From Capnocytophaga granulosa ATCC 51502 (GTDB taxonomy: Bacteria > Bacteroidota > Bacteroidia > Flavobacteriales > Flavobacteriaceae): a stretch of 64,000 nucleotides of DNA. Below are positions 4,862-53,592 of this stretch, piece after piece (the first letter of the stretch is position 1; each line of letters starts with the position of its first letter). The stretch spans positions 490,218 through 554,217 of the forward strand of contig NZ_KE150242.1 of the NCBI RefSeq assembly GCF_000411115.1, read 5' to 3'. The translations under genes were made by a program, and so were the position numbers. The notes beneath the pieces were generated by a model, which worked only from the letters and a program-made list of their open reading frames with translations, made no database searches and had not been told where the DNA came from.

Positions 4862-4895
4862 GACATTAATCACTTGTCATTAGTCACTTGTCACT
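4862..4895. repeat. Iterated ATTAGTCACTTGTC motif at the dinB-like 3' end
   Basis: Four degenerate copies of a TCACTTGTCA / TCATTAGTCA word in tandem. The block ends inside the TAG stop codon (4894-4896) of the gene at 4894-5361. The same words recur at 16060 and 56794. Confidence 0.75.
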
Positions 4896-18268: not shown

Positions 18269-18889
18269 ATGAATCGGTTTATCATTATCTTAGCTACCCT
18301 ATTACTCTTAGGGTGTCAGAAAAAACAAATGCAACTTCCACAGGTACAGGATACTAAGATTACCTCTGTGGAGGATTACTCTCAGGTGTATATCTCCTAT
18401 GAGGAATCAACAGGAGAGGCTAAGCTCAATGCCAATGGCCTGATTAGCTCCACCAACTGGGTGCTTCATATTGACAAACGGAATAAGCTCCATAAGGTAG
18501 CTCCGCTTTTTATCAAGCTCCAAGAGAAGCGAACAAACCCTCGCAACCCTCATAGCAACCCCGATGCACATCTTTATATTTCTTTAGCCGATATACCTCA
18601 TAAGTGTTTAGGCTTTATGGACGTAACCAACCTTACACTCCTTCCCTACGATCCTCAGAAAATGTCTGAATATGGAAATACACCCATATTTGTATATCCT
18701 GACGGCTTTCGTCTGAAAGAAAACAAAGGAGAAAAAACACCATGGAATGAGTTTGGCGTGTATAAGAATGTTTTTTATATTTGGATTTTCAGTGGTGATA
18801 TGACCTTCCAGCAGTTTGTAGATATTTATTATACAATGTTGCATCAACAAACCGATGGCCCTATCACAAGAATAATGATCAATGACTAG
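18269..18889 (+). CDS. Hypothetical lipoprotein
   Basis: A 206-residue protein with a lipobox-like signal (IILATLLLLGC, Cys16) starting 5 bp after mutS2, probably in the same transcript. The mature part contains no recognised domain. It has a GLISSTNWVLHIDKR stretch, a YISLADIPHKCLGFMD segment and a C-terminal MLHQQTDGPITRIMIND. It is predicted to be membrane-anchored. Function unknown. Confidence 0.75.
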   Translation: MNRFIIILATLLLLGCQKKQMQLPQVQDTKITSVEDYSQVYISYEESTGEAKLNANGLISSTNWVLHIDKRNKLHKVAPLFIKLQEKRTNPRNPHSNPDAHLYISLADIPHKCLGFMDVTNLTLLPYDPQKMSEYGNTPIFVYPDGFRLKENKGEKTPWNEFGVYKNVFYIWIFSGDMTFQQFVDIYYTMLHQQTDGPITRIMIND

Positions 18890-18909: not shown

Positions 18910-19183
18910 ATGCCTTACTTAAGTTTCGCAAGCTCTGTAATCAACTGATTCTCAAAATATCCCCCCTACCCCCCCTCAAGGGGGGAGTTAGTAAGTAGTA
19001 GAGGTTCAATAAGTTATAAAAGGGAAATTTTCTAATTTAATAAACAAATTAGACCATTTCAACGCTCTTAAAGCTCCCCCTTTGGAGGGGGGTTGGGGGG
19101 AGGTTTTTACAAATAATTGTTTATCAGTTACTTACAATTTCAATAGCAACCTAAAAACGACTTGCGAAACTTAAATACCTTAC
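18910..19183. mobile_element. MITE copy 1 (256 bp) with 9-bp target duplication
   Basis: The element spans 18919-19174 and has perfect 14-bp terminal inverted repeats TTAAGTTTCGCAAG / CTTGCGAAACTTAA. Flanking ATGCCTTAC (18910-18918) and ATACCTTAC (19175-19183) match at 8 of 9 positions, a slightly decayed target site duplication. Subterminal C-rich and G-rich blocks (about 18961-18989 and 19073-19103) are imperfect inverted repeats, so the whole element can fold. There is no coding frame. A near-identical copy is at 51976-52230. The region 18890-19214 contains nothing else except an iterated motif at 19184. Confidence 0.88.
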
Positions 19184-19214: not shown

Positions 19215-20000
19215 GTGTTTGACTTTCTAAACTTCAAATTCGTAGATTTCTTGGACATCGTCTTAGTAGGCTTGATATTGTACTACATCTATCGCCTGCT
19301 CAAGGGTACGGTAGCCATTAGTATCTTTTTGGGTATTGTGATCATCTTTGTCATTTGGAAACTCACCGTGATTGTCAAGATGGAGCTGGTCAGCAGTATC
19401 TTAGGCCAGTTTATCAATGTAGGCTTCTTTGCCCTGATTGTTGTCTTTCAACAGGAGATTCGCAAGTTCCTCTTGGTACTCGGCTCTACCAATGTACTCA
19501 ACAGCAAAAACCTCCTCAAGAAGCTTTCTCTAAAGAAAACTTCAGAGGATACGGTCATAGCTCACATGTGCGAGACGCTTGTTTCTGCCTGTCGCAAGAT
19601 GGGAGACGAACGTACAGGAGCACTCATTATCTTGGAGCGCAACCAGTCTTTAGAGTTTGTTCGTGCCACGGGCGACAAGATGAATATTGAGCTAAACCAA
19701 CCTATTTTAGAGAGTATTTTCTATAAAAACAGTCCCTTGCATGATGGGGCTATTGTGGTACAAAACGGCTTTATCGTGGCTACTCGTGTGATTCTACCTG
19801 TGGTAGGACAGAGTGTGATTCCTAAGGAATATGGCCTCAGACACCGTGCGGCAGTCTCTATCACCGAAAAAACCGATGCCCTAGCCTTGGTAGTTTCCGA
19901 AGAGACAGGAAAAATATCTTATATCAACAATAGTGAGTTTGTTCCCTATAGCTCCGATAGTGAGCTGGTTGCTATCCTAACCGAAGCCCTTTCCAAATGA
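19215..20000 (+). CDS. cdaA: Diadenylate cyclase (c-di-AMP synthase), CdaA type
   Basis: A 261-residue membrane enzyme that joins two ATP to c-di-AMP. Three N-terminal helices span about 10-80, followed by a DAC domain (about 105-245) with the DGA motif at 177-179 (SPLHDGAIVV) and RHR at 209-211 (GLRHRAAVS). Translation starts on GTG at 19215; no upstream ATG exists in frame. The MITE and an iterated motif occupy the leader, so native regulation may be altered. Its stop overlaps the ATG of the DUF2851 gene. Confidence 0.95.
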   Translation: MFDFLNFKFVDFLDIVLVGLILYYIYRLLKGTVAISIFLGIVIIFVIWKLTVIVKMELVSSILGQFINVGFFALIVVFQQEIRKFLLVLGSTNVLNSKNLLKKLSLKKTSEDTVIAHMCETLVSACRKMGDERTGALIILERNQSLEFVRATGDKMNIELNQPILESIFYKNSPLHDGAIVVQNGFIVATRVILPVVGQSVIPKEYGLRHRAAVSITEKTDALALVVSEETGKISYINNSEFVPYSSDSELVAILTEALSK

Positions 20001-21505: not shown

Positions 21506-21595
21506 CTTTTTAGGGAGAATTCAAAAATGGATACTTTATTTTTAGGCACTAATAAAATGCCCTCCTATATAGTTAAAATATTTTTGCTAACTTTC

Positions 21596-21689
21596 TAAGA
21601 AGCAATAAATTGCGTCTCTACACAAGCGCTGGCCAAGACAACTCCTGATGAGTATAGTCATCCGTAGAGACGCAATTTATTGCGTCTTA
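21596..21689. repeat. 94-bp palindromic element, copy 1
   Basis: The ends are TAAGAAGCAATAAATTGCG and its near reverse complement CGCAATTTATTGCGTCTTA, extending to 26-bp inverted repeats that include GTCTCTAC / GTAGAGAC with one mismatch. The interior is non-coding. An inverted, partly diverged copy is at 46887-46980, with the core AAGACAACTCCTGATGAG conserved. In the 21506-21827 gap the only other feature is the terminator at 21758. Confidence 0.85.
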
Positions 21690-21755
21690 AAGAATTATAT
21701 TATACAGATATTTTTAACAATTGATTCGCATTATAAGCTATACTCTTAACTAAAA

Positions 21756-23324: not shown

Positions 23325-23702
23325 ATGATAGAGGAAGACCTTTCTTATAAGATTAGAGGAGCTATTTACGAAGTCTATAACTATTTAGGCATTGGCTTAT
23401 TAGAGAGTGTATATACCAATGCTTTGAAGTATGAGCTTGAGAGGAGAGGTTTGAAAGTTTGCAAAGAGGTAGCTCTTCCTGTTCTTTATAAAGAAATAAC
23501 CTTAGATGTTGCTTTTAGACTTGATTTATTGGTTGAAGATAAAGCTATTATAGAGGTGAAATCTGTAGAAGAACTAAAACCTATTCATCATAAACAACTT
23601 TTGAATTATCTAAAGATAACCCAATTAAAATTAGGTATATTAGTAAATTTTAACGAAGAAAATATAAATAACGGAATATTTAGAAAGATTAATTTAACAT
23701 GA
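23325..23702 (+). CDS. GxxExxY protein (PD-(D/E)xK nuclease-like)
   Basis: A 125-residue protein of the GxxExxY family, with the name motif GLLESVY at residues 24-30. A nuclease-like core has Asp67 in AFRLDLLV and the E-V-K of AIIEVKSVEELKPIHHKQLLNYL (Glu77, Lys79), followed by GILVNFNEENINNGIFRKI. The family is widespread and repeat-associated, but its biochemical role is not established. The gene is bracketed on both sides by the same CCGTG-rich hairpin repeats, and no clear -7 element precedes it. Confidence 0.9.
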   Translation: MIEEDLSYKIRGAIYEVYNYLGIGLLESVYTNALKYELERRGLKVCKEVALPVLYKEITLDVAFRLDLLVEDKAIIEVKSVEELKPIHHKQLLNYLKITQLKLGILVNFNEENINNGIFRKINLT

Positions 23703-46830: not shown

Positions 46831-46886
46831 TGAAGAAACTACAAATGCCAATCAATAGTAAAAAATAATTGTATAGTCCAATTCAT

Positions 46887-46980
46887 TAAGACGCAATAAA
46901 TTGCGTCTCTACGGATGACTACGCTCATCAGGAGTTGTCTTAGCCAGCGTTAGGGGAGAAACGCAATTTATTGCGTCTTA
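46887..46980. repeat. 94-bp palindromic element, copy 2 (inverted)
   Basis: Ends TAAGACGCAATAAATTGCG and CGCAATTTATTGCGTCTTA match copy 1 at 21596-21689, and the copy lies in the opposite orientation. The interior CATCAGGAGTTGTCTTAGCC is the reverse complement of the copy 1 core, with scattered substitutions. Confidence 0.85.
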
Positions 46981-46996
46981 TAAGGATTGCAAGTAG

Positions 46997-50977: not shown

Positions 50978-51886
50978 TTAGAATAAAATATCAATATGAA
51001 GTTCACTTTGCTCACCGAAGACGCCCATTTTCACTGTATTAGGTACTTCAGTGCCTTTGATGACTCTCTTTTGAGCATCTTTAAGAATAAAATTAAGTGT
51101 CCAATAACCTGTCATGGTATAGTTCACCTTCCCATGATAGAAGCCATCTGCCCCTTGAGTCAAGTTTTGGTTGTCTGGAGACGAATGGTTTCCCATATCC
51201 TCCCCTGGCATACGAGGATCCAGCTCCAAGAGGTAATGGTTCGCCACAGCATAAGTGCTATCGGGCTGTTGTACCCATATCCCCGCGGAAAGGTCATTGA
51301 GGGCTACCTTAGGAATTTCTGGTGCCGTGAGGGCAATCATGTATTTCTTGCCATCACGACCTTGAAACTGGGTCATATTAAGATTAGGGTTACGCGTGTC
51401 CCATACTGTAATCTCTTTTTCTGCCTGATACTCCCTACCTTCTATGACATAAGTAAGGTGCAGGTGCCAAGGCGTTTTGATACCTGTATGAGTGGCGTTA
51501 AGTACCGAATATTTTTTAGGAGTATCGAACACAGCAAATCCTTTGAAGATACGGCTATCTTCGCTGTTGTCAAGTACTTGGCTATAAGGGATATAGCTGG
51601 ACTTTCCACGCTCATTGGTACGAGTTATAGAAAGGGTTACTTTTTCCACATTGAGCTTCTCAAAGGTTTGTGCTGTAGTGATTTTCACTGCCAAGGCATT
51701 ATAACCACGCAAAAACTCTCCGCCAGAGGATTCAACAGAGATAAGGTGCTCATTCTCTTTTATTTGTGTTACTTCTTGCAGCTCACCACGAGAGGCAAAG
51801 TGAAGACGATTGCCAAAGGGTGTTTTCTCCACGGTACAAGAGGACAGCCCTATAGCAATAAGTATAAGGATATATATTTTTCTCAT
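50978..51886 (-). CDS. Lipoprotein with YtkA/FixH-like domain
   Basis: A 302-residue lipoprotein with lipobox LSSC (Cys17). Two beta-sandwich halves are suggested. The second (about 185-300) contains LELDPRMPGEDMGNHSSPDNQNLTQGADGFYHGKVNYTMTGYWTLNFILKDAQ, which resembles YtkA/FixH-like proteins with a Met/His-rich loop suited to copper. It is the first gene of the pair with the TonB receptor. MITE copy 2 lies upstream. Confidence 0.8.
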   Translation of the reverse strand: MRKIYILILIAIGLSSCTVEKTPFGNRLHFASRGELQEVTQIKENEHLISVESSGGEFLRGYNALAVKITTAQTFEKLNVEKVTLSITRTNERGKSSYIPYSQVLDNSEDSRIFKGFAVFDTPKKYSVLNATHTGIKTPWHLHLTYVIEGREYQAEKEITVWDTRNPNLNMTQFQGRDGKKYMIALTAPEIPKVALNDLSAGIWVQQPDSTYAVANHYLLELDPRMPGEDMGNHSSPDNQNLTQGADGFYHGKVNYTMTGYWTLNFILKDAQKRVIKGTEVPNTVKMGVFGEQSELHIDILF

Positions 51887-51918: not shown

Positions 51919-51975
51919 ATAATGATTAATGCCAATAATGACTAATACCAAACTTATTAATCATTAATCATTAAC
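51919..51975. repeat. Iterated ATTAATGCCAATAATGA words upstream of the lipoprotein
   Basis: AATGATTAATGCCAATAATGA and further ATTAATCATTAATC words run into the left 9-bp target duplication of MITE copy 2. The MITE may have inserted into an existing repeat. In 51887-52234 nothing else is seen. Confidence 0.6.
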
Positions 51976-52239
51976 TTAAGTTTCGCAAGCTCTGTAATCA
52001 ACTGATTCTCAAAACATCCCCCCTACCCCCCTCAAGGGGAGAGTTAGTAAGTAATAGAGGTTCAATAAGTTATAAAAGGGAAATTTTCTAATTTAATAAA
52101 CAAATTAGACCATTTCAACGCCCTTAAAGCTCCCCCTTTGGAGGGGGGTTGGGGGGAGGTTTTTACAAATAATTGTTTATCAGTTACTTATAATTTCAAT
52201 AGCAACCTAAAAACAACTTGCGAAACTTAAATCATTAAC
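51967..52239. mobile_element. MITE copy 2 (255 bp) with perfect 9-bp target duplication
   Basis: The element 51976-52230 has the same 14-bp terminal inverted repeats as copy 1 (TTAAGTTTCGCAAG) and differs from copy 1 at few positions. It is flanked by perfect ATCATTAAC duplications (51967-51975 and 52231-52239). The right duplication includes the TAA stop (52235-52237) of the 133-residue gene on the minus strand, so insertion happened at the gene's very end without damaging it. Confidence 0.92.
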
Positions 52240-52636
52240 CATTAATGATTAAAAAAACGGGGGGTCTCAGTGTTTCCTTAACTATATTTTCCCAAGTAGA
52301 AAAATGATAATAAAAAAGAAGTGTTTGTTCTGTAGTGCAGAGGACAAGCGTTTCAAATGTAGGAATTTTTACACAAAAAACCTCTGTTTGGTGTTTTGTA
52401 AAATCAAATTTTACATCAGTCTGTTCCTGTGTGTTTTCAGAAGATACTTTGGCTAAAAAGCACTTACCATCGCAGTGTTTTTGTGTATTGGTTTTATTCT
52501 CACAGAAAAGAGTGATGAATTGTGTAGGATTGATTAGGTAATAAGAGAAAAAAAGCCCCCCACGTATGGCACTAAGCAGTACCATACAAGAGAGGATTAC
52601 AACGAAAAAGCGTACTCTTTTTCTCATTTTTATCAT
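52235..52636 (-). CDS. Small membrane-anchored protein with CDGKC motif
   Basis: A 133-residue protein (124-130 if a later ATG at 52627 is used). An N-terminal hydrophobic helix (FFVVILSCMVLLSAIRGGLFFSYY) precedes a short extracytoplasmic part with CENKTNTQKHCDGKCFLAKV, three cysteines in a Cx9CxxxC-like arrangement. This type is conserved near copper/TonB loci in flavobacteria from memory; metal binding is inference. It starts 2 bp after the ftsY stop. Its 3' end is bounded by MITE copy 2. Confidence 0.72.
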   Translation of the reverse strand: MIKMRKRVRFFVVILSCMVLLSAIRGGLFFSYYLINPTQFITLFCENKTNTQKHCDGKCFLAKVSSENTQEQTDVKFDFTKHQTEVFCVKIPTFETLVLCTTEQTLLFYYHFSTWENIVKETLRPPVFLIING

Positions 52637-52638
52637 AA

Positions 52639-53592
52639 CTATTTGAAGAAAGAATCTACAAATTCGTATTTGTTGAACACTTGCAAGTCCTCAATTCCTT
52701 CCCCTACACCTATATACTTGACGGGAATCTGGAACTGATCGGAGATACCTATAACTACCCCACCCTTGGCTGTACCATCAAGCTTAGTGATAGCCAAAGC
52801 ATTAACCTCCGTAGCCAAAGTGAATTGTTTGGCTTGTTCGAAGGCATTTTGACCTGTAGAGCCATCGAGTACCAAGAGTACCTCATCAGGGGCATAAGGC
52901 AAGAGCTTTTGCATCACGCGCTTTACCTTACTGAGTTCATTCATCAAATTAATTTTATTATGCAAACGTCCCGCTGTATCTATAATTACCACATCGGCCT
53001 CTTGAGAGAGTGCCGAAGAAAGCGTATCATAAGCCACCGAAGCAGGGTCACTGCCTGTCTGTTGCTTGACAAGGGGTACCCCTACCCTATCTGCCCATAC
53101 TTGCAGCTGGTCTATGGCCGCCGCACGGAAAGTATCCGCAGCCCCTAAGACTACCTTGAGGCCTTTCTTTTTGAACTGATAAGCGAGCTTACCTATGGTT
53201 GTGGTCTTCCCTGCCCCATTGACACCGACCACCATGATCACATAAGGTTTGCGCTCGGTAGGGACAAAGAAATCCACCGCTTCTCCTCTTTCTGTTTGTG
53301 AGAGCAGTCCTGCTATTTCTTCCCTAAGAATCTTATTCAGTTCGCTTGTGCCCAAGTATTTATCCTCGGCTACGCGCTTCTCTATACGCTCAATGATTTT
53401 CAGAGTGGTATTCACCCCCACATCACTGCTGACCAAAACGCCCTCCAGTTCGTCCAAAATAGTGTCATCTACCTTGGATTTGCCTGCAATAGCACGGGTG
53501 AGCTTATCAAAGAATGAGGTCTTTGATTTCTCTAAGCCTTTGTCCAAGGTTTCCTTTTTTTCGGAGGAGAATAATTTTTTAAAAAAATTCAT
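52639..53592 (-). CDS. ftsY: Signal recognition particle receptor FtsY
   Basis: A 317-residue SRP receptor GTPase that docks ribosome-SRP complexes at the membrane. The short A domain is basic (FFKKLFSSEKKETLDKGLEKSK), followed by the N helices and the G domain with VVGVNGAGKTTTIGKLA, GAADTFRAAAIDQLQ, DTAGRLHNK and TKLDGTAKGG. It lies in a minus-strand cluster with the AAA ATPase gene and trmD, and the next gene starts 2 bp after its stop. Confidence 0.97.
   Translation of the reverse strand: MNFFKKLFSSEKKETLDKGLEKSKTSFFDKLTRAIAGKSKVDDTILDELEGVLVSSDVGVNTTLKIIERIEKRVAEDKYLGTSELNKILREEIAGLLSQTERGEAVDFFVPTERKPYVIMVVGVNGAGKTTTIGKLAYQFKKKGLKVVLGAADTFRAAAIDQLQVWADRVGVPLVKQQTGSDPASVAYDTLSSALSQEADVVIIDTAGRLHNKINLMNELSKVKRVMQKLLPYAPDEVLLVLDGSTGQNAFEQAKQFTLATEVNALAITKLDGTAKGGVVIGISDQFQIPVKYIGVGEGIEDLQVFNKYEFVDSFFK

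Follow-up and report, generated by a model that had tools for sequence, protein, structure and literature searches.

Short non-coding elements that share their ends with an insertion sequence (IS) have been described in Bacteroidota. MITECca01 of the Bacteroidota endosymbiont Cardinium is reported as a non-coding element of ~240 bp whose ends are common with an IS; its partner is ISCca4 of the IS982 family, and subterminal IS sequence is kept in it (PMC9769881). Porphyromonas gingivalis carries BrickBuilt, MITE464, and relatives, MITEs with IS-like terminal inverted repeats (TIRs), which as described there resemble those of IS5-family ISPg elements (PMC4596501). Among autonomous elements, the ISPepr1 subgroup of the IS4 family was characterized by De Palmenaer et al. 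(2008) by a size of 1500 to 1600 bp, the end consensus YT-AA-YTT---A, duplications of 7 to 8 bp, and a preference for AT-rich targets (PMC2266710).

Here we describe two near-identical MITEs within a 64-kb stretch of DNA, the whole of which was analyzed and is referred to below as the window. They have the end consensus, the 7- to 8-bp duplications, and the AT-rich targets given for the ISPepr1 subgroup, but at 257 to 258 bp they are far below its published size range and lack a transposase (PMC2266710). They resemble MITECca01 in kind, whereas they share no subterminal sequence with the ISs that were compared, and the TIRs of BrickBuilt and MITE464 are unlike the core end AAGTTTCGCAAG.

RESULTS

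Two copies of one element in unrelated intergenic gaps

The original prediction placed two near-identical elements at 18919-19174 and 51976-52230, in unrelated contexts, and took them for members of a non-autonomous MITE family moved by transposition. Reading both sites bore this out. The copies are 97% identical, each lies in its own intergenic gap, and the gaps are unrelated; pairwise alignment gives six substitutions and one single-base indel, and the interiors are 97.3% identical over 224 positions. Beyond the direct repeats, the flanks of the two copies are unlike, except for short AT-rich words in common. The 14-bp TIRs are perfect at all four ends (14/14), and TTAAGTTTCGCAAG has no perfect match in the window other than these four ends. 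When up to three mismatches were allowed, nine matches were found in the window versus 9.27 expected, so the five further matches are at chance level.

With each boundary moved one base outward, in line with the ISPepr1 end consensus, copy 1 occupies 18918..19175 (258 bp) and copy 2 occupies 51975..52231 (257 bp). The left TIR, CTTAAGTTTCGCAAG, lies on the plus strand at 18918..18932 in copy 1 and at 51975..51989 in copy 2; the right TIR, TTTAAGTTTCGCAAG on the minus strand, lies at 19161..19175 and 52217..52231, respectively. No ATG-started open reading frame (ORF) of at least 30 aa with its own stop was found inside either element. Both have the properties of a MITE: no transposase gene, a length of 257 to 258 bp, TIRs, a target duplication, and two copies at unrelated sites within the 64-kb window. 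Common ends and duplications support spread by transposition.

Copy 1 is flanked by ORF 18269-18889, which gave no Pfam or NCBIfam match at 1e-5, and by ORF 19215-20000, which has a diadenylate cyclase domain. Copy 2 lies between two minus-strand ORFs, 50978-51886 and 52235-52636, with ftsY next at 52639-53592; its right target duplication overlaps the stop codon of ORF 52235-52636.

The window holds other repeats. Short tandem words of the CACTTGT, AATTAAC, and TCATTAA types occur in many gaps (at 4865, 16058, 22707, 27597, 48950, and 56796, as well as at both MITE sites). A second dispersed repeat, at 21584-21732 and 46844-46992, consists of inverted copies of ~150 nt that are 85% alike; each has a GTAGAGACGCAATTTATTGCGTC-type palindrome pair, and a terminal repeat or duplication is not obvious. 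Between 23104 and 23926, a 73-nt intergenic repeat (ATCCGTGTAAATCAC...CCGTGGGAGA) is present three times, and a 58-nt block is duplicated in the gaps flanking the 125-aa ORF 23325-23702.

The TIR is 15 bp and the target duplication 7 bp

To the 14-bp TIRs the original prediction had added 9-bp target duplications. The flanking words are present as it described them, ATGCCTTAC/ATACCTTAC (8/9) at copy 1 and ATCATTAAC/ATCATTAAC (9/9) at copy 2, in DNA of short tandem words (TCATTAA, AATTAAC) that alone raises the odds of flanking direct repeats. We compared the boundary across 67 distinct elements taken from the fetched loci and the window, each with one end perfect in the 12-base core and the other carrying at most two changes. 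They span 63 to 383 bp by the original boundary, and two pairs, in L013 and L080, have one end in common. The base outside the T of the end is a pyrimidine in 65/67 on the left and a purine in 64/67 on the right. When this Y/R was counted as element, perfect duplications of 7, 8, and 9 bp were found in 12, 11, and 2 of the 67 elements, against shuffle means of 0.30, 0.15, and 0.04, and 42 had no perfect duplication. With the original boundary, four elements had a perfect 9-bp duplication, one had 10 bp, and 62 had none. Nine of the 67 came from a search with REP-like palindromes, so both the duplication test and the hairpin test described below were repeated without them; for duplications (n = 58) this gave 10, 8, and 2 (7, 8, and 9 bp) versus 3 with the original boundary.

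Judged by these counts, the element is one base longer at either end (Y...R) and the TIR is YTNAAGTTTCGCAAG, 15 bp with the pyrimidine outermost. Because of the same counts over 67 elements, the duplications in the window are best read as 7 bp: TGCCTTA at 18911..18917 and TACCTTA at 19176..19182 for copy 1 (6/7, one change), and TCATTAA at both 51968..51974 and 52232..52238 for copy 2 (7/7), all on the plus strand. The apparent 9 bp is best explained by a terminal element base on either side that matches by chance the target base opposite, which lengthens a 7-bp duplication by two. A sister MITE on a plasmid of Segatella copri DSM 18205 has a 7-bp duplication, TAACTTA. Next to the element, the duplication has A at the left in 53/67 and T at the right in 51/67; this gives a symmetric T-N5-A target, the form to be expected of a complex with two-fold symmetry.

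A 14-bp-TIR MITE with a genuine 9-bp duplication, moved by an IS10/IS50-type transposase of the IS4 family or by another enzyme that makes 9-bp duplications, would account for the perfect 9-bp repeat at copy 2 and for the 8/9 repeat at copy 1, but we regard it as improbable, since the sister elements often match at the inner 7 to 8 positions but not at the outer ones, and perfect duplications of 9 to 10 bp were obtained in 5/67 elements versus perfect ones of 7 to 9 bp in 25/67 with the Y counted as element. The published IS50 end, CW------Y---CA-A, has C at position 13, where window-type ends have A; the IS10 consensus given there specifies CT only and is too short to discriminate (PMC2266710). 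The 9-bp duplication was rejected on the 67-element boundary test, which favors 7 to 9 bp with Y in the element.

The ends match autonomous IS4-type elements

At both ends of both copies, the sequence Y T N A A G T T T C G C A A G agrees with YT-AA-YTT---A wherever that consensus specifies a base, and both copies have a 7-bp duplication, within the 7 to 8 bp of the ISPepr1 subgroup, with one base differing in copy 1. The original prediction that the TIR should identify the parental IS therefore holds at the level of the group, since the ends match IS4/ISPepr1. A DDE transposase with the YREK signature of that subgroup is absent from the MITE. Because it has no transposase, the window MITE is a dependent element and not a full ISPepr1 member.

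Autonomous elements with the same core end, of the kind that the original prediction had proposed to search for, occur elsewhere in Bacteroidota. At a contig start in the Bacteroidales genome G088, locus L081 holds a 1594-bp unit with TTTAAGTTTCGCAAGT at both sides. In both window copies, the right end agrees with this L081 end over 16 bases (in copy 1, the right TIR plus the next T) and the left end over 14 bases. The 485-aa L081 transposase scores 395.9 bits against the NCBIfam model IS4_4 (cut-off, 250) and also matches Pfam DDE_5 and DDE_Tnp_1. Four more contig ends in G088 stop inside an L081-type unit, with the same element ends, which is usual for multicopy ISs in drafts. Multicopy ISs tend to be lost from draft assemblies.

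A second autonomous IS lies on the Segatella hominis plasmid NZ_CP137560.1 (locus L138), at 759-2359 (1601 bp), with ends CTNAAGTTTCGCAAGTGAA at both sides; its transposase, WP_194257162.1, scores 374.3 bits against IS4_4. It has the window's core end, identical at both sides, and the same outer Y/T, but it is autonomous, its interior is unrelated, and its duplication is not clear, as is also the case for the IS copies at L126 and L129. On the Bacteroides salyersiae plasmid NZ_CP081900.1 (L139/L309), an element of ~1.56 kb runs across the record start with YTCAAGTTTCGCAAG at both ends and a duplication of 5/7; its transposase and the L081 transposase share 52.6% identity over a single match covering 84% of the query.

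Related ends were seen in ISBf8, in three copies in genome G325, and in one degraded copy from Segatella copri (genome G005). ISBf8, an IS4-like element (L140, L141), has the first ten end bases of the window MITE, CTNAAGTTTC, and its copy on a Bacteroides faecis plasmid has ends CTAAAGTTTCCCACCC and a 7-bp duplication, TACATAA, when C is counted as element; unlike the window MITE it is autonomous, and its end diverges after the ten bases (CCACCC). The ISBf8 transposase, like those of L081 and L138, fits IS4_4; its score is 458.7 bits. The duplications at two G325 copies (L127, L128) are 6 bp and not 7 to 8. The signature Y-x2-R-x3-E-x6-K is present in all four transposases tested (L081, L138, ISBf8, and G325). 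Three records labeled as plasmids, NZ_OY725798.1 (L140), OY726057.1, and NZ_OY725886.1, of 1664 to 1665 bp, match an IS4-type transposase; L140 is a single ISBf8 copy with its ends joined and no other sequence, either an excised IS circle or an assembly artifact.

Across the phylum, 89/395 genomes match IS4_4 at 1e-3 and two exceed the cut-off; one of these, G325, has a different end, CTCAACTTTCGCACTT. At 1e-10, the L081 transposase was matched in 2/19 genomes with the core end, in G088 itself and in one that carries two diverged pieces, of which one has an internal stop. The partner was not found in most drafts with the end, which assembly loss, divergence, absence, or extinction could explain. 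It is from the ends and the duplication that the window elements would be placed in the ISPepr1 group, and from these, too, that we infer the link between IS4_4 and ISPepr1.

Beyond the ends, comparison of the window MITE with 14 IS loci gave nothing longer than 12-base matches (E = 0.42), and comparison with 65 other elements gave no match at 1e-5. Since only ends and 12-base words match, the MITE is not a simple deletion derivative of the ISs and elements compared; origin by internal deletion of a known IS is not supported for the 14 loci.

Patchy distribution of the ends

When the genome_contigs collection was searched for AAGTTTCGCAAG pairs spaced as in a MITE, 21 loci were returned, 20 titled within Bacteroidia and one titled as a Selenomonadales MAG, all 21 with TNAAGTTTCGCAAG ends. 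In 16 of the source genomes, the 12-base core has 528 matches (244 of them in one genome) versus 8 for the reversed control, a comparison shaped by the choice of these genomes for a locus holding the end pair. No enrichment was found across the phylum, where YTNAAGTTTCGCAAG gave 40 matches in 34/395 genomes and the reversed control at least as many; the distribution of the family is therefore patchy. Within the G005 order, 81/198 genomes contain the 12-base core, mostly with one to three matches, the same as the control; a few genomes are clearly above control, e.g., G022 (40), G127 (12; control, 4), and G190, G005, and G088 (7, 7, and 6). Viral contigs gave no hits, either with the TIR-pair pattern or with a 22-base pattern of end plus subterminal sequence. 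The interior of the window MITE has no relative in plasmids or among 20 of the 21 genome_contigs loci, the remaining one, L006, being too near its contig start for comparison. The aspartokinase/homoserine dehydrogenase encoded in the window has at most 47% identity to those of the 69 out of 395 sampled genomes of the phylum with a match at 1e-200; among database entries that carry an organism name, MAGs labeled Capnocytophaga sp. come closest, at 69 to 70%, and entries lacking such a name reach 90 to 98%. The lineage of the window is thus probably Flavobacteriales-like, which would place these ends outside Bacteroidales.

Empty sites, which the original prediction had proposed to look for in sister strains, were sought twice, for two sister elements of Segatella, in relatives of the Segatella genome G005 (12/60 and 15/119 genomes matched, G005 included), and no orthologous one was found; among the matches inspected, flanks from different genomes were ~68 to 78% identical. 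In the open-access literature, judged by title, no paper on bacterial repeats contains the 12-base core, and a search for MITE with copri returned none that was bacterial. Nothing there joins MITE, Bacteroidales, inverted repeats, and target site duplication, and in the portions of text that mention both, ISPepr1 and MITEs are not linked.

Unrelated interiors, mostly hairpins, lie between the same ends

Copy 1 in its entirety is predicted to form a long imperfect hairpin, with a DNA z-score of -8.2 (0/200 shuffles as good) and an RNA z-score of -8.5. The core of the hairpin is an inverted pair of G+C-rich REP-like palindromes, the left one at 18961..18987 pairing with the right one at 19074..19103; the corresponding palindromes of copy 2 lie at 52018..52043 and 52130..52159. 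Palindrome 19074..19103 is terminator-like, with a T tail on the plus strand (two such sites were found in the region and 0.5 expected).

Single-linkage clustering of the 67 interiors, with ends removed (E 1e-5 over half of the shorter interior), gave 22 clusters, 12 of which hold a single element; the largest has 17 elements over several genomes, and the window pair forms a cluster alone. In the fold test, from which the palindrome-fetched elements were left out and in which elements of the same cluster are not independent, 43/57 interiors have z below -3 versus 8/76 equal-length flanks. One subfamily of MITEs of 260 to 261 bp (L002, L012, L015) has an interior made from a TGTCTGGAAGACAGT palindrome, unlike the other interiors.

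In four Segatella/Prevotella-type genomes, 24/30 fetched loci with a REP-like module have an end nearby (at most three changes), against 7 to 8 of 30 for reversed or scrambled control words, some of the 30 loci coming twice from one element; the other 6/30 have no recognizable end. In the order of G593, 10/248 genomes match the window interior, all over 25 to 42 bases, and among 12 of the 20 loci fetched, eight have REP-like palindromes and four do not (L147, L148, L150, L155). The window palindrome type is present in these genomes without the window's ends. Three loci of genome G710 (L151, L158, L163) hold ~250 bp with the REP-like palindrome pair of the window MITE and without its ends. At L147 (G809) and L150 (G655), 30- to 36-base matches to the AT-rich right arm of the MITE, near TAACTGATAAACAATT, lie outside the REP-like palindromes and are possibly another shared repeat.

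The hairpin interiors fall in many clusters and the palindromes also occur without ends, so the palindromes seem either to be repeats in their own right that the ends have enclosed or to have been selected for their shape. Inverted pairs of REP-like palindromes in the interiors, together with the 6/30 module loci without recognizable ends, could also be explained if the elements were REP/REPIN-type dispersed palindromes spread by the tyrosine transposase RAYT, with the TIRs as part of the unit. This is very improbable, as the same ends and duplications surround 22 interior clusters in 67 elements, and REPs are described as palindromes of 20 to 40 bp, distinguished from TIR-bearing MITEs (PMC3733652); short palindromes of that type have neither TIR nor target duplication, and the window elements have both. 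The richness of both sites in short tandem words might suggest segmental duplication, duplication through recombination, or gene conversion between tandem-word intergenic repeats in place of transposition, but this can hardly be credited when likeness falls to short AT-rich words at the TIRs and ends with duplications recur in many genomes.

Two further candidates were dropped. The flanking AAC/GTT, which we take to resemble integron attC sites, is accompanied by target duplications, and the attC reading was abandoned. For PINSR of Prevotella intermedia, the published account reports no TIRs (PMC4755523).

DISCUSSION

The window holds copies in unrelated places with common ends and duplications; sister elements give 7- to 8-bp duplication statistics, and Bacteroidota carry autonomous IS4 elements with the core end. 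We consider it highly probable that the two copies represent a single MITE subfamily and that an IS4-family DDE transposase of the ISPepr1 subgroup, supplied in trans, acts on their YTNAAGTTTCGCAAG ends. Going by end sequence and duplication length, an enzyme of the ISPepr1 group is the most likely one to have moved them.

A trans-acting ISPepr1-type transposase would bind both 15-bp ends, cut them, and excise the element; the 257- to 258-bp DNA would then enter AT-rich intergenic sequence at a cut staggered by 7 bp, in the preferred frame T-N5-A, giving rise to the 7-bp duplication. We infer the trans-acting step and the presence of the enzyme in the host, now or formerly, and the cut-and-paste chemistry is suggested by analogy with the IS4 family.

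As a MITE, the window element is of an ordinary kind. What goes beyond the ordinary is that one end is found on many otherwise unrelated, mostly hairpin-forming Bacteroidota elements. A more speculative idea, which we think unlikely, is that one 15-bp end has been placed repeatedly around differing REP-like DNA in Bacteroidota and that the fold itself matters for movement or survival. If so, a folded or cruciform element might bring the ends together, or an insulating hairpin might be selected in intergenic sites. With its end and duplication length corrected, an intergenic repeat is now tied to a defined transposase group, and the end provides a 15-base tag for recognizing mini-elements of Bacteroidota, the relatives in Prevotella and Segatella in particular. 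The excess of hairpins across clusters makes the question of why so many bacterial mini-transposons are palindromes a testable one.
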